22,535 bases of DNA, taken from the IMG/VR virus record IMGVR_UViG_3300008735_000108, positions 1 through 22,535 of that record, one strand, 5' to 3'. The notes under the pieces are model-generated. The model had not been told where the DNA came from, ran no database searches, and worked only from the letters and a program-made list of their open reading frames with translations. Positions 4,999 to 22,526 of this stretch are shown here, piece after piece. Source of the DNA: a virus. Within the stretch, counting starts at the first letter, position 1, and every line of letters starts with the position of its first letter. A program made the position numbers and the translations under genes.

Positions 4999-5039
4999 GT
5001 AGGATATACACGCGAAGCGTTGTAATTTTTGAAACCTAC
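4999..5039. terminator. Probable bidirectional terminator between helicase and Hsp20
   Basis: TACACGC (5007-5013), loop GAA, and GCGTTGTA (5017-5024) pair with one bulged T, followed by TTTTT at 5026-5030 in the plus direction. An outer pair GTAGG (4999-5003) and CCTAC (5035-5039) can extend the structure. In the minus direction ATTTTC follows the outer stem. The site lies just where two genes converge. Confidence 0.55.
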
Positions 5040-5446
5040 TATTTTATGGAAATCGTCTTAGGTCTTTTATCTTCTGGTGGACGGTATTCCAATTTGATTT
5101 TAAGAATCCCATCTTCGAGTTCAGCACCTTTAGCTTCCACATACTCATGTAATTGTAACTTACGCGTAAAAGCTCTTTTAGCCATACCTTTATAAACATA
5201 GTCCTCCTTATCTTCTTCTGATTTACCAGTTATTTTTAATATGCCATCGGCAACTTCAATATCAATCTCTGATTTTTTATAGCCAGATAAAGCCATCTCT
5301 AAAGTGTATTTATCTTTGCCTGCTTTCTTTATATTATAATAGGGAAAACCCGTATTATGAGAATGCAGAGAAGAAAATCTATTGAAGAAATCTTCAAAGC
5401 CAATTGCGTTATTTAGGAAATTATTTAAATTTATTAGATCAGTCAT
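5039..5446 (-). CDS. Small heat-shock protein, Hsp20/alpha-crystallin family
   Basis: A 135-aa ATP-independent holdase chaperone, which would bind unfolding proteins in the host cytoplasm during infection. The alpha-crystallin domain covers about residues 35-130: PYYNIKK and YTLEMALSGYKKSEIDIEV at the start, GILKITGK, and the closing ELEDGILKIKLEY, which is the conserved G-x-L motif of the family. The tail ends KTISIK, with the I-x-I motif that docks between subunits. The length is close to IbpA. The ATG has a near-perfect Shine-Dalgarno (AAGGAGGT, 5451-5458), the strongest of the window, and a probable promoter sits 60 bp upstream, so it may be expressed apart from the late operon. Phage Hsp20 genes are known from marine cyanophages and pelagiphages. 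Help with capsid protein folding is inference. Confidence 0.93.
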   Translation of the reverse strand: MTDLINLNNFLNNAIGFEDFFNRFSSLHSHNTGFPYYNIKKAGKDKYTLEMALSGYKKSEIDIEVADGILKITGKSEEDKEDYVYKGMAKRAFTRKLQLHEYVEAKGAELEDGILKIKLEYRPPEDKRPKTISIK

Positions 5447-5534: not shown

Positions 5535-5726
5535 GACTTTTATTGTAATATTAATAATGACGTATGCCATACCAGTAATTAAAGCGCCTACTGATACTAA
5601 TAAAATACTTTCTATTCTATTAATTTGTTTTTCTAATTTAGATATTTTATCGTGAGTTTGTTTTTGCATAATTCTGCAAAGTTTTTCGTGTGATTCTATT
5701 TTTTGTAATGCGTTATCTTTTGGCAT
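5529..5726 (-). CDS. Small membrane protein with coiled coil, holin-like
   Basis: A 65-aa protein. Residues 10-40 are charged with heptad spacing (SHEKLCRIM, DKISKLEKQINRIES), predicting a coiled coil, and residues 41-62 form one hydrophobic helix (LLVSVGALITGMAYVIINI) ending a few residues before the C-terminus. A coiled coil followed by a C-terminal membrane helix is the plan of XhlA-like phage lysis proteins and some holins. The start at 5726 is chosen because it forms a TAATG overlap with the upstream gene and has AAGGA before it; the longer frame to 5780 has no such signal. No endolysin is seen next to it, which weakens the lysis call. A spanin-like or virion membrane role cannot be excluded. 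Confidence 0.65.
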   Translation of the reverse strand: MPKDNALQKIESHEKLCRIMQKQTHDKISKLEKQINRIESILLVSVGALITGMAYVIINITIKVL

Positions 5727-7627
5727 TATAATACCAATCCTTTTAAGAAAAATTGAACTGTTCTGTACACAAAAGTCCAACCTGTTTTTAATGTTCTTTT
5801 TCTACCTGTGCCAAATGCAACATAATCTTTAAATTCTTGGTAATGATTTTTAACTTTACCTTCTTCAATTGCTTTTTGACCATAGTATCTGTAGCCTCTT
5901 CTTATAGCTTCACCCCACCATGTTCTGTGTAAATTCTTAACACACCAACGTACAGCTTCTCTTTTTGTTTCTGGTGTAAATGCTCCTGATTTAACAGCAT
6001 GAGTTGCAACAACGCAGCCGCCACCGCCTGGCGCATCTCCTCCTGAAGGATGTCCAGTTCGACCCGGTTGAGCTGTAGATCCTTCTGGAACACCTCCTCG
6101 TCCTTGGTCTTGTGCTTTTTCTACTGCTTTTCCAATATCAAAAGCTCCTGTAAGTTCTCCGGTTGGTTCTGTATAACCATAACCTGTATCATCCCAGCCA
6201 TCGAAATCATCAGTTGTATCTACTGTATCTACACCTTCATCTTTACCTGGGTCACGAGTTTGCATTATATCTGTATAAGTTTCTCCAAGTTTTTCTAAAC
6301 CTTCTTTTCTTTCTTCTGCTTGTAAATCTTCTAATGTAGTTACTTCATCTGGATCAGTAACGACTTCTCCAGGGCCCCAAACGTCACCAGTTGCAGGATC
6401 TTCAACACCGCCAGCTTTCTTAGCTTTGTCATTAAAATAAGCTTCTGCAAAAGCTTTTTTAGCTTCTCTCATTTCAGCTGTTTGAAAACCTGTTTGATTT
6501 ATTCCAAGCACATCGTCTGTTAATGTTTGTTCGTAATTGCCAGAAAATGATACTGGATTTCTACCAAAAGGATCTTGATTTAAATTTCCAGATTGTATGC
6601 TAAATTTACTCCACGGTTTATCTTTCTGTCCTTTTAACTCATCAACAATACTTCTTGATGTTTTATTTGCTAATGATTCTTGAGGTAAAGCTTGCACTAC
6701 AAAACCTAAACCAGGTGCTATTGCATTCATAATAGCTGATCCTGCCATCTTACCTACATTTATTCCTTGTTCTGCAAGACCACTAAATGCATCAGCTACA
6801 CTTTGTCCAAAATTAGCAGCGACTCCAGATATTCCATCTGTAGAGTATGTACTTTTTACAGTGTCCCAGAAACTTGGATTTTGATAATTTTGTTGTTGAA
6901 TTTCCATCAATTTTGAATCCATAATACGGTCTGTGTAAGCAAAAGGATCTAATGCTTTTTCTTCAGAAACAATTCTATCATCAGTATACATAGCATCTAT
7001 ATTAGGATCAGAATAATCAACTATTCCCGCTGCTTCCGCTAGTTTAGGATCAACTTCTCCTACGCCATATCCAATTTCAGGAGCTAAAGCATCAAACTCT
7101 GCTTGAGTTGTATCTTTTGCAACTTGAGCTATGTCTTGTTCTAATGCGTTTGGTGTTGTGTCTTCTGGTTGAAAATATTCTTGAGGTCCCCATACCATAC
7201 CTTCAGCTGGTGTCTTAGGCATCTCACCTGGAATTGAATACGCTTGATTTGGTGTCATAGCTGCGACAGCTCCTGCTTGATCCATTGTAGTTGAGCCAAG
7301 TTGAGGAATCATTGTTGTTGGATCTTGTATTGTAGGCTGTACAACTGAAGCTCCTGTAATTCCTTCTCCTCCGCCACCAGTTTGAGGTATCATTGTTGTT
7401 GGATCTTGTACTACTGGTTCTTGTACTACTGGAGTTTCTGCTTCTGGAACCGTCCAACCTACGTCAGGGACATTTCCCCAACCTGTATAATATTGTGCTG
7501 TACCTGTACCTTGAGCAATGTCTTGAAGATAGTTTTCTCCAAAAGCAATCTTTCTCATCTCATGTAGTTCAGGGTTTTGTTCTGCTACTACTTCAGGAGT
7601 TAAATTTAAAACGTCTGTAATTGCCAT
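5726..7627 (-). CDS. Virion-type protein with disordered linker and Cys/His C-terminal domain
   Basis: A 633-aa protein with distinct parts. Residues about 50-130 are low-complexity, Pro/Gln/Thr/Gly-rich, with two copies of QDPTTMIPQ. Residues about 250-330 contain a Gly/Ala-rich hydrophobic stretch (KMAGSAIMNAIAPGLGFVVQ) that could contact membrane. The segment NQDPFGRNPVSFSGNYE follows, a pattern I associate with marine phage virion proteins. A glycine-rich linker (about 510-537, encoded by unusually GC-rich DNA) leads into a separate basic domain, 538-633, beginning CVVATHAV and with WCVKNLHRTWWGEAIRRGYRY, holding C538, H543, C562 and H567. It is coupled by TAATG to the 1562-aa gene before it and the 65-aa gene after it, and GAGGA precedes its ATG. 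A structural or ejected protein is the best guess; an enzymatic role for the last domain is open. Confidence 0.7.
   Translation of the reverse strand: MAITDVLNLTPEVVAEQNPELHEMRKIAFGENYLQDIAQGTGTAQYYTGWGNVPDVGWTVPEAETPVVQEPVVQDPTTMIPQTGGGGEGITGASVVQPTIQDPTTMIPQLGSTTMDQAGAVAAMTPNQAYSIPGEMPKTPAEGMVWGPQEYFQPEDTTPNALEQDIAQVAKDTTQAEFDALAPEIGYGVGEVDPKLAEAAGIVDYSDPNIDAMYTDDRIVSEEKALDPFAYTDRIMDSKLMEIQQQNYQNPSFWDTVKSTYSTDGISGVAANFGQSVADAFSGLAEQGINVGKMAGSAIMNAIAPGLGFVVQALPQESLANKTSRSIVDELKGQKDKPWSKFSIQSGNLNQDPFGRNPVSFSGNYEQTLTDDVLGINQTGFQTAEMREAKKAFAEAYFNDKAKKAGGVEDPATGDVWGPGEVVTDPDEVTTLEDLQAEERKEGLEKLGETYTDIMQTRDPGKDEGVDTVDTTDDFDGWDDTGYGYTEPTGELTGAFDIGKAVEKAQDQGRGGVPEGSTAQPGRTGHPSGGDAPGGGGCVVATHAVKSGAFTPETKREAVRWCVKNLHRTWWGEAIRRGYRYYGQKAIEEGKVKNHYQEFKDYVAFGTGRKRTLKTGWTFVYRTVQFFLKGLVL
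7301..7410. repeat. Direct repeat of about 29 bp within the 633-aa gene
   Basis: The 29-bp sequences starting at 7301 and 7382 differ at one base and both encode QDPTTMIPQ. The spacing is 81 bp, so the reading frame is kept if copies are lost or gained. Confidence 0.85.
7404..7433. repeat. Tandem 15-bp repeat
   Basis: Two adjacent copies of TCTTGTACTACTGG plus one base (7404-7418, 7419-7433) differ only at the last position and encode VVQEP/VVQDP. They adjoin the 29-bp direct repeat in the low-complexity part of the 633-aa protein. Confidence 0.85.
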
Positions 7628-16461: not shown

Positions 16462-16625
16462 TATGCTAAAAAGAAAGCCTCCGCCTCTGATTCATCTTTT
16501 AAATCTTGCTGAAAAGATGTATTTAATTTTGTAACCACACTATCAACATCTCTAACAAATGATTGTTGAACTGTTTGATCGTATTCTGGTAATGGTTGTG
16601 TTAATGATTGTACTATTCTAGCCAT
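16461..16625 (-). CDS. 54-aa conserved small protein between nozzle and beta-rich protein
   Basis: This short gene starts at ATG 16625-16623 and ends with TAA at 16461. Its start overlaps the stop of the nozzle gene as TAATG, and its stop overlaps the start of the 112-aa gene in the same way, so it fills the gap exactly. GGAAGAAG lies before the ATG. The product begins MARIVQSLTQPLPEYD and ends EAEAFFLA; it is acidic and helical, with no membrane segment. Short proteins with a similar plan (a Pro-rich start, then a helix with TSFQQDL-like residues and an aromatic end) sit beside tail genes in other podoviruses, from memory. It could be a small tail or assembly factor. Confidence 0.72.
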   Translation of the reverse strand: MARIVQSLTQPLPEYDQTVQQSFVRDVDSVVTKLNTSFQQDLKDESEAEAFFLA

Positions 16626-18769
16626 TATCTTCTTCCATCCGGTTGTATATCTAATCTAAAAGTACCAAGTTTCCAGTGTTGAGTTCTTCCAGTATTATCT
16701 ACTTTTAAAGATATAGCTCTTGCTCTGGCACGGGTATCTATTTTAGTTGTAGTAGTAGTTGTTGTAAAAGGACCTAAAGATGAACTTGCTTGTGCATCTG
16801 TTGGGTAATTTTTTAAATTTAATGTAACTCTTGCATCTCCAGTTTGAGTTAAAAAGTCAGGTATAATTCTTCTTATTTTCATCATAAATTCTCCATCACC
16901 TTGTTGTGGAACAGGGGATTGACCAATATCAAAATCTCCTGATTCAATACTAGCTTGAATAGCAGTTGTTGCTCCTGCTTTAATTTGATTGGTCCCAGTT
17001 TCATGTTCAAAGTATGTTGTAACACCATCAGTGTTGCCAACTGTTGAATCACTTGTAGCACTTGAATCATATTCAGTTCCATGTGGTTTACCAAATATAG
17101 ATGAGTCTGCCCAAGTAGATCTAGCTAATGAACTTATAGTCCATATAGGTCTTTGAAGAGATGAATCCATGTAATTGTATGTAACCGATCTAGAATTAGC
17201 TGTGGCTCCACTACCTGGATAGAACCAAGTAACTTCACCAAATAAGTTATTTAAACCTGCATAAATATGCTGTCTAGGTACATCTGCTAAGCCATCATAA
17301 ACATAGTCTTCAACTAAGCATGGTAATGATTGTAATTGTCCAGTGTATCTAAAGAAACCATTTTCTGACATCCAGTATGCAGATCCATCAACCTCAACGG
17401 CTGCATTTTGTCCAATCAATCCACAGTTAGTTCCAACTTGTTGAAACGAGAAAGTAAATGGTGGACCAACGAATTTCATAATAAATAAAGCTGTATCTGT
17501 CCAAATGTAAATTGCATCTCTACCTCTTATAGCTCCAACGATTCTCGTACCATCTGCAAGTCTTTGCGTACCGGCAGTATTAGTTGAAGTTGGTGTCCAA
17601 GTCGTTAAAGATTCTTGAGATGACCATCTAACGTACATATCATCTTGAGTAGATGTTGTGCCAATTGTAGTTTCTGTTCCAAAACAAACTAAGTGTCTAT
17701 CCGGAGTAGAAACTAATGTAAATTGTGATGCTGTTGGTGCTCCAGATACAATTGTTGCACGAGTTGATGTTGCACCTGTTGCATTTGAATTCCATTCAAA
17801 AGTTGCTCCATCTGAAATTGTTGCAATAAGTTTATTTCCAAAATTATCTAGTGACCAAATACCAGGCGCTGTTACAATGTCACCTGTCTGTGATGCACCC
17901 CATTTTGTATAGTCTGATGCATTGGTTGTAGTAGCAGCATCAGAATGTGATGCAGCTGTAGTGTTATCTGCTCCTCTAGTTAATCCCCCTAAAGTTCCAG
18001 TACCCGTGGTGTTTGATGTATAAGCAATTCTTTCATCATCTATTAAAACTGTTCCTGATGATGGAAATCCTGTAGAATCATCTAATACAATACTTGTTGA
18101 AGATGAAGTTAAAGCACCATCAAGAGTTGAAGTAACTTCACCTGCTGTAGTACCACCCCATACTCCTAGTCCCCAACCAGCTGCTGATTCTTCAACTGCA
18201 GGTCCTATGGAATAATAATGTTGAACTCTTATTCCACCTGATGTGGATGCGCCTGATCCTGATTCATTTGATCCCATTTCAACTGTAATCGTTGTTGAAG
18301 TAGGGACGGTTGCGACCATAAAAACTTTATCATCAAAATCACCAGAACTAAAATCAGAATCGGTAATAGCGGTAAAATTATCCAGCTTAATGATATCGTA
18401 CTGAGAAATATTATGATCAGATGCAAACGTAATCGTGACTGTTGCATCGCTTTGTGTTGTTGTAAATGCATTAGTTAATGTTGTTGTAGCCTTAATAGGA
18501 GTAATATCATAAAAAGCACCTCCTGAATACACATATAAAATTCTGTTTGTACCTAATGCTGAATATTTAATACCATCCGAATTAACGAATTGGTGCATAG
18601 CTACAGTTCTTCCAGTTAAAGTAATATCTCCTAACTGTGCCCAACCACCTATTTTTTCAGGGGAACCATATCTAAAACGAACATAGTCTCCATCAACCCA
18701 TTGACCCTCGCCACCCGTTGCGGTAACTTGTTTATTAATTCCTGGTTGAATATTTATTTTTTGTAACAT
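16625..18769 (-). CDS. Tail nozzle / packaged-DNA stabilisation protein (P22 gp10-like)
   Basis: A 714-aa beta-rich protein. The N-terminus, QKINIQPGINKQVTATGGEG followed by WVDGDYVRFRYGSPEKIGGW, matches the start of the P22 gp10 / T7 gp12-like family, which forms the distal tail tube or plug that keeps DNA in the capsid. Later family-type segments are WSLDNFGNKLIA (305-316), YIWTDTALFIMKFVG, the GQNAAVEVDGSAYWMSENGFFRY region, and the C-terminal WKLGTFRLDIQPDGRR. Two extra beta modules interrupt the core: about 95-180, and about 211-282 with STGFPSSGTVLIDDERIAYT and GLTRGADNTTAASH. A run of seven Thr lies near residue 670. No Shine-Dalgarno is clear before the ATG, which is 17 nt after the upstream stop. 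It closes the modification-gene block and opens the tail block. Confidence 0.85.
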   Translation of the reverse strand: MLQKINIQPGINKQVTATGGEGQWVDGDYVRFRYGSPEKIGGWAQLGDITLTGRTVAMHQFVNSDGIKYSALGTNRILYVYSGGAFYDITPIKATTTLTNAFTTTQSDATVTITFASDHNISQYDIIKLDNFTAITDSDFSSGDFDDKVFMVATVPTSTTITVEMGSNESGSGASTSGGIRVQHYYSIGPAVEESAAGWGLGVWGGTTAGEVTSTLDGALTSSSTSIVLDDSTGFPSSGTVLIDDERIAYTSNTTGTGTLGGLTRGADNTTAASHSDAATTTNASDYTKWGASQTGDIVTAPGIWSLDNFGNKLIATISDGATFEWNSNATGATSTRATIVSGAPTASQFTLVSTPDRHLVCFGTETTIGTTSTQDDMYVRWSSQESLTTWTPTSTNTAGTQRLADGTRIVGAIRGRDAIYIWTDTALFIMKFVGPPFTFSFQQVGTNCGLIGQNAAVEVDGSAYWMSENGFFRYTGQLQSLPCLVEDYVYDGLADVPRQHIYAGLNNLFGEVTWFYPGSGATANSRSVTYNYMDSSLQRPIWTISSLARSTWADSSIFGKPHGTEYDSSATSDSTVGNTDGVTTYFEHETGTNQIKAGATTAIQASIESGDFDIGQSPVPQQGDGEFMMKIRRIIPDFLTQTGDARVTLNLKNYPTDAQASSSLGPFTTTTTTTKIDTRARARAISLKVDNTGRTQHWKLGTFRLDIQPDGRR

Positions 18770-18786
18770 AGAAAACCATTATATTA

Positions 18787-19437
18787 TTAATTCCCTAATT
18801 TGGGAACACCTAACATTGGCCTTTTGTCGAACCTATTCTTATCAGCAAAAGGACCATTTACATGGTTATAATGAAGGAATACTTGTCCACAGTTTTCTCC
18901 TTCAAAGGGTTCTCTCCAATGCTCTAATTCACATCCACTATATACTAGCATATCGCCAACATCAAGCAAGACTTTAGTGCCTTCTGGAGCATTGGGTTTA
19001 TGTATATTTTTATATTCATCGATAACATTATTTGATCCTGTGCCATCTATAAATATAGGCCACGGATCACCCCCTAAATTAAGGGTGCAAGATATCTCAC
19101 AACTAGGCCTGTCTTTATGGCGTTTTAAAATATCTCCTTTTTTATATAATCTCGCATAAGAGTATGTTGGTACTAATTGAAGTCCTGTTTCTTTTTGCAT
19201 TACTGGTAATACTTTCATCATTAAGGTTTCCATTACAAAATCAGCATAACAAGAAAAGGTATTTGGAACTTGTTGATCTCCCCATGTTCCTAATAGCCCA
19301 TTGTCATAGGTTATATTATTTTTATACATCCAACCAACTGCATCTCTCTTCAACATAAAATAGTTAAAGATAAAATTAGCTAGCTCATAACTAATTGCAT
19401 TTTTAACTACTTGATATTTTTTAATCTGAAAACTCAT
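18787..19437 (-). CDS. 2-oxoglutarate/Fe(II)-dependent oxygenase-like protein
   Basis: A 216-aa protein of the prolyl-hydroxylase-like double-stranded beta-helix type. YARLYKKGDILKRHKDRPSCE (95-114) contains the iron-binding pair H107 and D109; the distal ligand is probably H173 in CELEHWREPFEG, with VFLHYNHV as the closing strand. R175 or a nearby basic residue may hold 2-oxoglutarate, but the usual Arg spacing after the distal His is not obvious. Such enzymes hydroxylate protein, nucleic-acid or small-molecule substrates; none can be named here. It starts at a TAATG junction with the second oxygenase-like gene, and the nozzle gene follows. Enzymes with the EHWREPF...FLHY end are frequent in marine phages, from memory. 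Confidence 0.78.
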   Translation of the reverse strand: MSFQIKKYQVVKNAISYELANFIFNYFMLKRDAVGWMYKNNITYDNGLLGTWGDQQVPNTFSCYADFVMETLMMKVLPVMQKETGLQLVPTYSYARLYKKGDILKRHKDRPSCEISCTLNLGGDPWPIFIDGTGSNNVIDEYKNIHKPNAPEGTKVLLDVGDMLVYSGCELEHWREPFEGENCGQVFLHYNHVNGPFADKNRFDKRPMLGVPKLGN

Positions 19438-20012
19438 TATATAAAATTAAAAGATACTGATATTCTTATATCATTACTTTGATTAGGTTCTACTTTATGC
19501 CACATCCAAGAAGGGAACATTATGAGTCTTCCAGGAACTGGATCATAAAAAGTCTCTCGCCACAACTCTCTAGGAAGTTTGCTTGATTTTCTTGCTGGCA
19601 TGTTCTGTTGAACTCCAGGTCTTGGGTCCATTAATGCTAATCGACCAGAATTAGGTGAAGCTTTTATATAGTAAGCGCCAGAAAATAATGAATTAGGATG
19701 AAGATGCATTTGATTATATCCTCCTGGAGGATTTATATTAGCCCACATATTACCTAATCTAGGTTTAATATCTAAGTGCTCTTCTTGAATAATTTCATTT
19801 TGCATTGTAAATAATTCTTGAATTAAAGGTTCGTATTCTTTTTTATGGTTCATGTCAGTCTGTGAATGCCAACCCTTAACATTAGTTTTTTTAACACCAG
19901 AATCATTTTTACTCCATTCAACAATATGTTTTTCTAAATATGGATTTAATTCATTCGCATTAGGTAAATCTTTAACGTATATAATAGTTGGAAAAAAATA
20001 TTCTTTAATCAT
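19437..20012 (-). CDS. 2OG-Fe(II) oxygenase-like protein (TIGR02466/PF13759 type)
   Basis: A 191-aa protein matching the plan of the putative 2OG-Fe(II) oxygenase family TIGR02466. Residues 88-108 read NMWANINPPGGYNQMHLHPNS, with H103 and H105; SGAYYIKASPNSGRL and DPR (129-131) follow; the closing part is VPGRLIMFPSWMWHKVEP with H172, then RISVSFNF with R183. H103-x-H105 takes the place of the usual HxD, as is typical for this family, so catalysis and metal binding are less certain than for a canonical enzyme. It overlaps the upstream gene as ATGA and the downstream gene as TAATG. The substrate is unknown. Confidence 0.8.
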   Translation of the reverse strand: MIKEYFFPTIIYVKDLPNANELNPYLEKHIVEWSKNDSGVKKTNVKGWHSQTDMNHKKEYEPLIQELFTMQNEIIQEEHLDIKPRLGNMWANINPPGGYNQMHLHPNSLFSGAYYIKASPNSGRLALMDPRPGVQQNMPARKSSKLPRELWRETFYDPVPGRLIMFPSWMWHKVEPNQSNDIRISVSFNFI

Positions 20013-20593
20013 TTAAAAGGAGTTCCTCCAAACCACATTACTAGAGATTGTCTAACACCACGTGTAACAGGTGCTACTCTATGATTTAAAAATGATGCAA
20101 ACATTACAGCATGTCCTTGTCTCATTTTAGCTCTTTTATCTTTAGCCATTAGTTCTAGTTCTCCTCCTTCAAACTGATGTTCTGGGGATAATAATACTGT
20201 CATTGATATTTTTCTAACAGGAGGTTCGTGCGCCATGTTTACATCACTATCCATATGCCAATCATAAAAGCCACCTTCAGGGTATTCGGTAAATTGAGCT
20301 TGCTCTGTTACATGTACATCTTCAAATCCAAAATGATTTCTATTTGCTTTTTGAATAAAGGAATTGACTTGATCATACATTGGTTTCATTTCATCAAAAG
20401 GAATCCAACTAATAGTAGTAACTCTTTTTTTAGTATCTAATCCACCACCAGGTCTTTGACCCATACCAACTTGAGCTTTCTGTGGTTTTTGTCTGTGACC
20501 ACATTCAATAATCATTTGACATTGTTCAGGAGTAAATAAAGGAGTAGTTGTTTCAACTATCCAACTCTTCCATTTAGGTTCTGTTATTATCAT
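20009..20593 (-). CDS. PKHD/prolyl-4-hydroxylase-type 2OG-Fe(II) dioxygenase
   Basis: A 194-aa protein and the most canonical of the four. EYPEGGFYDWHMDSD gives the iron-binding H113 and D115; MTVLLSPEHQFEGGELEL is the strand-turn typical of the P4Hc/PKHD family; FASFLNHRVAPVTRGVRQSL supplies the distal H171 and the 2-oxoglutarate-binding R181. All four expected active-site residues are present, so an active dioxygenase is likely. The family hydroxylates proline or other residues of proteins, and related proteins act in iron-siderophore contexts. The start overlaps the upstream gene as ATGA. In this place, next to tail genes, a virion or host protein substrate is inference. Confidence 0.88.
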   Translation of the reverse strand: MIITEPKWKSWIVETTTPLFTPEQCQMIIECGHRQKPQKAQVGMGQRPGGGLDTKKRVTTISWIPFDEMKPMYDQVNSFIQKANRNHFGFEDVHVTEQAQFTEYPEGGFYDWHMDSDVNMAHEPPVRKISMTVLLSPEHQFEGGELELMAKDKRAKMRQGHAVMFASFLNHRVAPVTRGVRQSLVMWFGGTPFK

Positions 20594-21243
20594 GCGCTCC
20601 TGTTCTTAATTGGGTCATACTCTACATCCATATTACATGCTAAAGTTCTTCTAAAACCATTTCCATTAAAAGGATAAACACAATGTCTCATATCATATGG
20701 AAATACATAAAAAGCTCTTTCTTTCATTATAGGACCATAGTCTGAATTACAAAATTGTCCTGATGCATTACCTAGTATTTGTAATTGACCATTCATAGGT
20801 TTACCAGGTGCTGAATATTCAACGCCTGTATTTTTAGGTAATTTTAAAATCATAACCGATGATAAACCTGTAAACAAAGCCCCTTGATGAATGTGTACTG
20901 GATTATATTCATTAGCTTTCATTTCATTCACCCATACAGAATTCATATGCATATTATATTCTGTAATTTTATTCCAATCTAAATAATGTTTCATAACCTT
21001 ATGAAACCATTGACGTACATTATCTGGTAAAAAATTATGTGGATGCATTTTATTATTAGGAGGACCATCAAAAAATAAAGAATGCTCGTTTTGAATTTTA
21101 CCTACTAGTTGTACATTAGAAGGAGGTAATTCATGTCTTCTTGTTTCGTATATATGATTAATAGTATCATACACATCTAAAGGTGCTTCATATTTTAAAA
21201 CCGATTGACCTAAAAATATAAAATTAAAATTTAATGTGTCCAT
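20590..21243 (-). CDS. Divergent 2OG-Fe(II) oxygenase-like protein
   Basis: A 217-aa protein that resembles its TIGR02466-type neighbour in layout. NSVWVNEMKANEYNPVHIHQG (101-121) carries H117 and H119, with SSVMILKLP as the next strand; the closing part is RAFYVFPYDMRHCVYPFNG with H187, then FRRTLACNMDV with R198/R199. As in the neighbour the usual HxD is HxH, and overall likeness is weaker, so the call rests on the order His pair, distal His, Arg. The ATG at 21243 overlaps the sulfotransferase gene by 20 nt; no other usable start lies before the domain. It may have become non-catalytic or have a changed substrate. Confidence 0.68.
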   Translation of the reverse strand: MDTLNFNFIFLGQSVLKYEAPLDVYDTINHIYETRRHELPPSNVQLVGKIQNEHSLFFDGPPNNKMHPHNFLPDNVRQWFHKVMKHYLDWNKITEYNMHMNSVWVNEMKANEYNPVHIHQGALFTGLSSVMILKLPKNTGVEYSAPGKPMNGQLQILGNASGQFCNSDYGPIMKERAFYVFPYDMRHCVYPFNGNGFRRTLACNMDVEYDPIKNRSA

Positions 21244-22036
21244 ATTTTTCTCTTATTCTTTTTGGTATTTTTTCTATGTAGGGATTGTATTCTTTCTTAA
21301 CTTCATTTCGTATAGTATGCATATTTTTGCCAACAATTCCATCATTATATCCCATTCTATTAACTTGGATTTGATCTAGATCAAAAAACCTATGTTTAAA
21401 ATAAGGTATGTTAAATAAAGTATATACTTTACTTATTTCTTCTTCAGGGTTTTGTACTAAATCATCATACTTCATAAAGTGACATATATCAGGATAGTTA
21501 TATGCATTTTTAATTGCTTCTAAATTCTTAGCAACAGCACCATCTTTATTCATAACCATAGATAGTTTTTCTTCATCATTTTTACATTCAAATCTATTAG
21601 GAAATGCTGTAGGCTCTCCTGTGTACCATTTCATGTAACTGGCCAGTACATCCATTAAATCTCTCAGCAACACCACACACTTAAAAGGTTTTTTAAAATG
21701 CTTTTGCATGAGTGCAAAATTACCTTTAGTCATTACAGGACCACGATCTATAATATATTTCTGTGGCCAGTTTTTATAATAATTTACATAAACAGAATCT
21801 AATACATTATCTAGTGATCGATGATCTGGGTAGTTTTGAAAGACATCTGTTTCTTTTAATAAAAATAAATCTTTCATTATCTCTAAAGTAATTGAATTAG
21901 GCGTACATGCTATATCAGGATTTTGATTCATAATAGACGTGAATAAGGTATTGCCTGACCTTGGCATTGCAACTAAAAAGAAAAGTTTTTTAACCCTGTT
22001 GTCCGATAGAGTTTTTGCTGAATTCCAGTTTTGCAT
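21224..22036 (-). CDS. PAPS-dependent sulfotransferase
   Basis: A 270-aa cytosolic sulfotransferase-fold protein, which would move a sulfuryl group from PAPS to a hydroxyl or amino group. LFFLVAMPRSGNTLFTSIM (18-36) is the 5'-phosphosulfate-binding loop, with PRSGNT at 25-30. CVVLLRDLMDVLASYMKWY (120-138) is the 3'-phosphate-binding motif with R125 and S133. MKYDDLVQNPEEEISKVY (188-205) is the usual helix after the substrate site. No signal peptide or membrane segment is present. It overlaps the upstream gene by 47 nt; the P-loop begins only 23 residues from the ATG, so the start cannot be much later. The acceptor is unknown; lying ahead of four oxygenase-like genes, a hydroxylated product is one idea. 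Sulfotransferases occur in several marine phages. Confidence 0.88.
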   Translation of the reverse strand: MQNWNSAKTLSDNRVKKLFFLVAMPRSGNTLFTSIMNQNPDIACTPNSITLEIMKDLFLLKETDVFQNYPDHRSLDNVLDSVYVNYYKNWPQKYIIDRGPVMTKGNFALMQKHFKKPFKCVVLLRDLMDVLASYMKWYTGEPTAFPNRFECKNDEEKLSMVMNKDGAVAKNLEAIKNAYNYPDICHFMKYDDLVQNPEEEISKVYTLFNIPYFKHRFFDLDQIQVNRMGYNDGIVGKNMHTIRNEVKKEYNPYIEKIPKRIREKYGHIKF

Positions 22037-22526
22037 CGTCTTTCTTTTTATTTTCGATAGCTATATCTTTTTTAATTCTTTCAATGGATTGCAATTGTCC
22101 TAATACGTTAAAGACTTCTGGTTGAGAGGATCCTTGAGTCAAGGTCTCTGCTTTATTTTTCATGGTTAAATGATAGGAGTTCAATTGGTGAGTATTTACA
22201 TTTTTAGTATCAAATGAGCCATCATCAAATTTCTTTTTAAATTTAGACCATAGTTTTATTTCTCTCATCCTGTCTCTTGCCACTAATTGTGCACTGGCTT
22301 TATTATAAATTTTTTCATCTATGTCTATCTGTAGCAATTCTCTTTTTAGTGGATCTTCTTCTTTTTCTAATTTTTCTTGTAATCTTTTAATCTTCACCTC
22401 TGTTCTTCTATAATCAAAAGATAGTGTCATTAAGTTTTCCAGGAATACATTTTGTTCCCTGACACACTGCCAGTATTTAGCAGCTTTCGTTGGATACTTT
22501 GCATCATTTAAAACAGAAAACTGCAT
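21990..22526 (-). CDS. Conserved coiled-coil marine-phage protein, unknown function
   Basis: A 178-aa protein from the ATG at 22526; the frame (GAA ACT GAA) stays open to the window edge, so the real start may lie outside. The N-terminus DAKYPTKAAKYWQCVREQN is followed by a long charged helix, FDYRRTEVKIKRLQEKLEKEEDPLKRELL, predicting a coiled coil at about 35-85, then LVARDRMREIKLWSKFKKKFDDGSFDTKNVN, and a polar C-terminal helix. The pattern is familiar from marine phage genomes but I know no proven function. The last 15 codons overlap the sulfotransferase start. Being first in the row it may be an assembly or structural helper, or belong to the gene block outside the window. Confidence 0.68.
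   Translation of the reverse strand: MQFSVLNDAKYPTKAAKYWQCVREQNVFLENLMTLSFDYRRTEVKIKRLQEKLEKEEDPLKRELLQIDIDEKIYNKASAQLVARDRMREIKLWSKFKKKFDDGSFDTKNVNTHQLNSYHLTMKNKAETLTQGSSQPEVFNVLGQLQSIERIKKDIAIENKKKDDAKLEFSKNSIGQQG

Follow-up and report, generated by a model that had tools for sequence, protein, structure and literature searches.

Genes for 2-oxoglutarate (2OG)-dependent oxygenases rank with the most frequent cargo genes of marine phages that still lack an explanation, and are commonly assigned to host metabolism. Eight distinct oxygenase genes have been described from pelagiphages of the HTVC023P type, often near genes labelled 'ferrochelatases' (PMC9599517), and rows of oxygenase-type genes are already present in the cultured pelagiphages HTVC023P, HTVC033P and HTVC008M. 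Here, we describe a row of four oxygenase-type genes (D, C, B and A) with a sulfotransferase gene (E) ahead of it in the virus record IMGVR_UViG_3300008735_000108 of IMG/VR, which was analysed over its entire 22,535 bases (the window; G+C content 34%, long open reading frames (ORFs) mostly on the minus strand). A first-pass annotation of this DNA had called the dense row unusual; the four overlapping oxygenase-type genes and the sulfotransferase are indeed there, but the row is not unique, given the similar rows of HTVC008M and the HTVC023P-type phages. We find that the unit is the oxygenase row and that the sulfotransferase is an add-on. Tentatively, with a probability of about 0.4, we propose that these are late-acting enzymes that modify the phage's own receptor-binding tail protein by hydroxylation, with sulfation in addition in some strains.

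The genes of the block lie on the minus strand and are transcribed in the order F-E-D-C-B-A-N. F (21990..22526, 178 amino acids), which heads the block in the window, has no assigned function and matches phrog_1409 weakly. It is followed by E (21224..22036, 270 amino acids), an optional insert between F and D, and then by D (20590..21243, 217 amino acids), C (20009..20593, 194 amino acids), B (19437..20012, 191 amino acids) and A (18787..19437, 216 amino acids). Directly after the block lies N (16625..18769, 714 amino acids), a tail nozzle or stabilization-type virion structural protein of the P22-gp10 type, assigned through phrog_3287 and homologues. The five-gene row is real as first annotated, with exact overlaps of 20, 4, 4 and 1 nucleotides (nt) at the E/D/C/B/A junctions and the nozzle-type gene immediately behind, separated from the end of A by a 17-nt gap; a further overlap of 47 nt joins F to E, which the annotation did not include. 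Terminator-like sites were not found on the minus strand between 16000 and 22535, in a scan that has little power.

Three of the four oxygenase-type proteins match curated families. C matches PF13640 (2OG-FeII_Oxy_3; E = 7e-16, 59 bits, Pfam cut-off 27), is of the PKHD type (PKHD/PiuC-like), and combines this family match with an HxD...H...R site (H113, D115, H171, R181), identifying it as a 2OG-Fe(II) oxygenase. B matches PF13759 (2OG-FeII_Oxy_5; 2.8e-28, 98.7 bits, cut-off 27) and TIGR02466 (4e-39), and D also matches PF13759 (7.9e-9, 36.3 bits, cut-off 27); both belong to this family, with its conserved His ligands and Arg arranged as HxH...H...R (H103, H105, H172 and R183 in B; H117, H119, H187 and R198 in D). 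The HxH pattern is normal for PF13759, the solved members 3bvc and 2rg4 having the same one. The motif types are therefore as originally claimed, with one canonical HxD...H...R site (C), one HxD...H site (A) and two HxH sites (B and D). Site residues of A, B, C and D are invariant in 40–44 relatives per gene (42 for C), and the catalytic residues of the A–E set are under purifying selection. No internal stops were found in full-length copies of the block genes among relatives, and the median pairwise ratio of nonsynonymous to synonymous substitution rates (dN/dS) was 0.13–0.23 for the block enzymes and 0.08 for F.

C also gives a sub-threshold match to Tet_JBP (E = 0.022), which, together with the DNA hypermodification genes of HTVC023P-type phages (PMC9599517), would favour a role in DNA or nucleotide modification, with the oxygenases hydroxylating phage DNA bases and the hydroxyl then being modified further. 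The best-matching families, however, are protein or small-molecule hydroxylases, and the genes lie with tail rather than replication genes, making this role very improbable.

Next, we examined whether the row travels together, using a sample of 43 viral contigs found with E and further searches that took A, N or E separately as the seed. The order F-E-D-C-B-A-N held in 43/43 loci found with E, as far as the contigs reach and down to about 51–65% identity, and the E/D overlap measured 20 nt in 41/41 loci. In the A-, N- and E-seeded searches, D-C-B-A was unbroken in every locus showing both D and A. This conserved order, combined with the lack of internal stops and the dN/dS values of 0.13–0.23, indicates that the row is not a product of chance. 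E behaves differently: it is precisely missing in 32 loci, with F abutting D (one of these, L108, has a split D), and in the A-seeded sample it was present in 19 loci and missing from 29. On a tree of D, C and B from 107 loci, E presence switches at least 11 times, and a tree of the adhesin predicted E presence no better than the oxygenase tree (6 changes each). Hence, of the earlier proposal that all five genes form one pathway and travel together, the linkage of the four oxygenases stands, and the inclusion of E does not. As a rare exception, D and A are both missing from locus L204, which has E, C and B; in L040 and L044, B and A are set apart by ~420 additional nt. A fusion of A- and C-type domains, hinted at by phrog_3531, was not recovered as a fused ORF among the fetched loci.

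The repeated gain and loss of E also fits a cargo hot spot, in which recombination brings unrelated enzyme genes into the region next to adhesin genes, with separate functions for sulfotransferase and oxygenases; in HTVC023P-type phages, oxygenase number and order are likewise highly variable. A hot spot accounts less well for a D-C-B-A row with fixed overlaps that is never interrupted in loci showing both D and A, or for the recurrence of the same enzyme types beside adhesins in unrelated phages, and we regard it as unlikely.

Protein A required separate treatment, as it matches phrog_2954 (6.5e-50), which carries the PHROGs label 'ferrochelatase'. The same label was given by annotators to A-type genes in HTVC023P, HTVC033P and HTVC008M, and the A-type phage protein has been handled as a ferrochelatase (PMC9599517, PMC11561400). 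No Pfam family, including ferrochelatase PF00762, was matched at E up to 1 by A and six homologues. The AlphaFold2 model of A (predicted local distance difference test score, pLDDT, 81) matches a prolyl hydroxylase in Foldseek (4iw3, 1.2e-9), and its alignment to PHD2 and P4H with VIA-align gave Z scores of 16–17, with a root-mean-square deviation of about 2.5–3 over about 165 residues; no ferrochelatase structures were among the listed fold matches. The predicted model shows a double-stranded beta-helix fold bearing an HxD...H triad (H107, D109, H173), and this metal triad is invariant from pelagiphage/podovirus to cyanophage (cyanomyovirus) homologues. Structure prediction thus supports the original call of A as an HxD...H oxygenase-like protein, and suggests that A has a prolyl-hydroxylase-like fold and does not look like a ferrochelatase. 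A resembles the prolyl hydroxylases (PHD2/EGLN and Pseudomonas P4H) in predicted fold and HxD...H pattern, but is just 11–16% identical to them and differs in the usual C-terminal 2OG-binding Arg: no basic residue occurs at the position expected for the Arg or Lys, ~10 residues past the second His, and R175, Q185 and H189 are invariant instead. We therefore term A oxygenase-like, and not a proven oxygenase.

These observations bear on the possibility that the oxygenases act on metabolism in the infected cell, altering its handling of 2-oxoglutarate, nitrogen or iron/haem, as has been proposed for cyanophages and pelagiphages (PMC3037559, PMC9599517, PMC11561400) and as would suit the raised expression of host iron and sulfur genes in HTVC027P infection (PMC12753301). 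The prolyl-hydroxylase fold of A and its lack of a ferrochelatase family match remove the haem argument, and the genes lie beside adhesins in the structural module, so that a metabolic function appears improbable.

For the proposed action on the tail, the neighbouring gene upstream is central. In relatives with longer contigs, F is usually preceded by genes for one ~600-residue or two ~325-residue repeat proteins, whose profile matches solved Kelch propellers (2e-17). In a model of such a protein (pLDDT 84), about half its length superposes on whole Kelch domains, with template modelling scores (normalised by target) of 0.74–0.77. With a double Kelch propeller ahead of F, the block of these relatives lies between the Kelch protein (and F) and the nozzle; the double propeller is probably the tail adhesin.

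To obtain an independent view, we seeded a search with sulfotransferases of other phages, 24–28% identical to E, resulting in 33 dereplicated contigs. Immediate neighbours of these distant sulfotransferases were repeat-rich in 37/60 cases, compared to 29/176 for the remaining ORFs of those flanks (odds ratio 8.2, p = 1.8e-10), and 23/32 loci had an adjoining repeat-rich protein; the neighbours scanned as examples proved to be propellers of the Kelch and RCC1 types. In 29/39 distant-sulfotransferase loci, there is also a 2OG-type gene or one for a DUF6445 protein. With a P4H-type oxygenase as seed, 15/16 loci had an adjoining repeat protein (15/31 vs 18/85, p = 0.006), as did 8/9 of the subset without a sulfotransferase in the examined flank (p = 0.2 for this subset alone). 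Both samples are dereplicated, are not phylogenetically independent and have some contigs in common. Furthermore, the oxygenase rows of HTVC008M, HTVC023P and HTVC033P adjoin glycine-rich tail or adhesin-like genes.

Several features of these islands were noted in passing. DUF6445 proteins lying beside phage sulfotransferases and repeat adhesins (L312 1297-1932, L314 4259-4882, L267 7339-7989) have an HVDP motif and a late WHSH, and from their sequences resemble another family of oxygenase type. In S-SKS1, where the sulfotransferase is flanked by repeat adhesins, the P4H-type oxygenase (L263 6202-6887) is split into two overlapping ORFs, and may be broken or reflect a sequencing error. F was considered as a common part of islands elsewhere: the phrog_1409 matches on both sides are weak, and a profile-profile comparison was negative, although it is insensitive and also misses the relation of A to D, so that F is retained as a lead.

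Turning to the sulfotransferase, E matches PF13469 (Sulfotransfer_3; 1.4e-11, 45.6 bits, cut-off 27) and PF00685 (Sulfotransfer_1; 9e-11) and carries a loop, PRSGNT, of the PRSGxT type that binds 3′-phosphoadenosine 5′-phosphosulfate (PAPS), with R26-S27-G28-N29-T30 invariant in relatives; family match and loop together identify a PAPS sulfotransferase. Its best sequence match in the PDB is to protein-tyrosine sulfotransferases (TPST, 3e-5), but the GEET stretch of TPST, in which the catalytic Glu is located, aligns with T-P-N-S in E, in a weak alignment of 11 bits. A bacterial source of the sulfotransferase was not found with the patterns used.

The PAPS could come from the host, which is probably SAR11, since phages of this group occur on SAR11 single-cell genome contigs (AG-404-L13, nozzle 64% identical), although such contigs can be contaminants. 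Synthesis of PAPS by the phage was rejected, as 13 related phage records, some of them incomplete, yielded no adenosine 5′-phosphosulfate (APS) kinase. Nor is it established that the host lacks PAPS: many SAR11 family genomes have a short CysC-like gene, and while SAR11 lacks sulfate reduction, with cysDNCHIJ called absent in the text of PMC5069961, the table of the same paper has aprA, cysC and cysQ for many strains. In two SAR11 sequences (L296 1495-2276 and L297 1498-2278), a short APS-kinase-like gene lies by genes that by eye are nucleotidyltransferase-like and Rieske-type dioxygenase genes, a cluster that could possibly be an unusual PAPS or nucleotide route.

Taken together, we propose that the block would act as a late protein-modification unit for the phage's own tail adhesin, its late expression being expected from its position. 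C, along with B and D through their HxH iron site, would hydroxylate side chains of the repetitive Kelch protein; A would either hydroxylate as well, its 2-oxoglutarate pocket being altered, or serve as a partner without catalytic activity. In some strains, E would then use host PAPS to sulfate hydroxyls of the Kelch protein, either those of tyrosine or newly made ones, and the modified adhesin would differ in its surface charge and in how it binds the receptor. It is possible that hydroxylation creates the sulfate acceptor, as first suggested, but this is not required, because the oxygenases are retained in loci that lack E, and sulfotransferases are found where there is no such row. Among the substrates originally listed, a virion protein is favoured by the gene neighbourhoods, a host polymer is still a candidate, and a nucleotide finds no support here.

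A number of observations weigh against this proposal. That the adhesin is the protein modified is itself a prediction from sequence, and gene proximity would equally fit modification of a host receptor or a cargo hot spot. The sulfotransferase of S-SCSM1 (L392 5998-6843) is flanked by an exonuclease gene and an HNH gene, at a distance from annotated adhesins, and glycosyltransferase genes, which suit work on glycans, also occur in sulfotransferase islands. Full-length APS kinase is missing from most SAR11 family genomes, making the PAPS supply uncertain. Finally, Tyr occurs in the Kelch blade motif [DE]x[YWF][DN]G of 498/602 blades from loci with a sulfotransferase vs 47/180 from loci without one (p = 8e-9), but this correlation with E is confounded by clade and lost in tree-based contrasts, in which the motif class stays the same across five independent pairs; it could be a single clade difference, and tyrosine as the sulfate acceptor was accordingly rejected as a candidate and the correlation not used as support.

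Some of these points suit an alternative in which the enzymes remodel polysaccharide or lipid on the host surface while infection proceeds, and thereby keep progeny phages and competitors from adsorbing thereafter; the genes would be linked to an adhesin because receptor-binding and receptor-altering functions must match. Sulfotransferases act mostly on carbohydrates, and E itself weakly matches NoeE, a Nod-factor sulfotransferase. Phage sulfotransferases have glycosyltransferase, epimerase and sugar genes in their vicinity, and 61/148 SAR11 family genomes have sulfotransferases of their own, some sharing a contig with APS-kinase genes. On the other hand, the block sits inside the structural module, where late expression is expected, and not with host-takeover genes, and oxygenase rows without an adjoining sulfotransferase or glycan gene are common. 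We judge remodelling of the host surface to be credible but rather unlikely.

If modification of the phage's own adhesin is correct, many of the genes now filed as 'auxiliary metabolic genes', a large class of them, would serve virion maturation, adding a chemical layer to phage host range. More broadly, it is conceivable, if still doubtful, that abundant aquatic phages have a dedicated post-translational pathway of hydroxylase rows and a swappable sulfotransferase that finishes repetitive propeller adhesins, so that both sequence and modification determine receptor specificity, and that the widely reported phage 'ferrochelatase' is one such enzyme. Relabelling the latter would undo the haem/iron reading in PMC9599517 and PMC11561400.

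The same label appears in a survey of seasonal marine viruses, in which primase phrog_21866, oxygenase phrog_61 and 'ferrochelatase' phrog_2954 were enriched (PMC11561400). All three are matched on the single contig of the window (minus strand, 221-1735, 20009-20593 and 18787-19437, respectively), and phages of this kind may therefore drive that seasonal signal. Elsewhere on the minus strand, the window encodes an Hsp20 small heat-shock protein (5039-5446; PF00011, 5e-18) and a 633-residue protein without a PHROG or Pfam match (5726-7627), the C-terminus of which starts GGGCVVATHAV and is CFI-box-like by eye.

Among known systems, the closest are the HTVC023P-type phages (HTVC023P, 023Pt_psg01 and HTVC033P; PMC9599517), which have C-, B- and A-type genes, with A 51–56% identical. 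As in that group, a phrog_2954 gene adjoins a 2OG oxygenase gene ahead of a common nozzle gene in the window; in HTVC023P and 023Pt_psg01 the oxygenase genes lie near or before the same nozzle-type gene, and in HTVC033P beside tail genes. The window differs in having four contiguous, overlapping oxygenase-type genes, a separate D type and a sulfotransferase ahead of them, whereas the cultured phages have no sulfotransferase in the region. The pelagimyophage HTVC008M has a five-gene oxygenase-type row (gp072-gp068) that also ends in the A type and lies inside the neck/baseplate module, from head-tail adaptor to baseplate, but this phage is of another family, and its row contains other oxygenase types, runs on the strand opposite to its structural neighbours and has no sulfotransferase. 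HTVC008M contains another oxidative pair in a virion module, an overlapping tryptophan halogenase and B-type oxygenase between terminase subunit genes (L262 296-2255). Finally, cyanophages S-SKS1 and S-SRM01 and related viral contigs bring together, over a few kilobases, a phrog_27463-type sulfotransferase, 2OG oxygenases and proteins with repeats or propellers, as at this locus, but their sulfotransferases are only 24–28% identical to E, their islands have no four-oxygenase row, and glycosyltransferases are more prominent in them.

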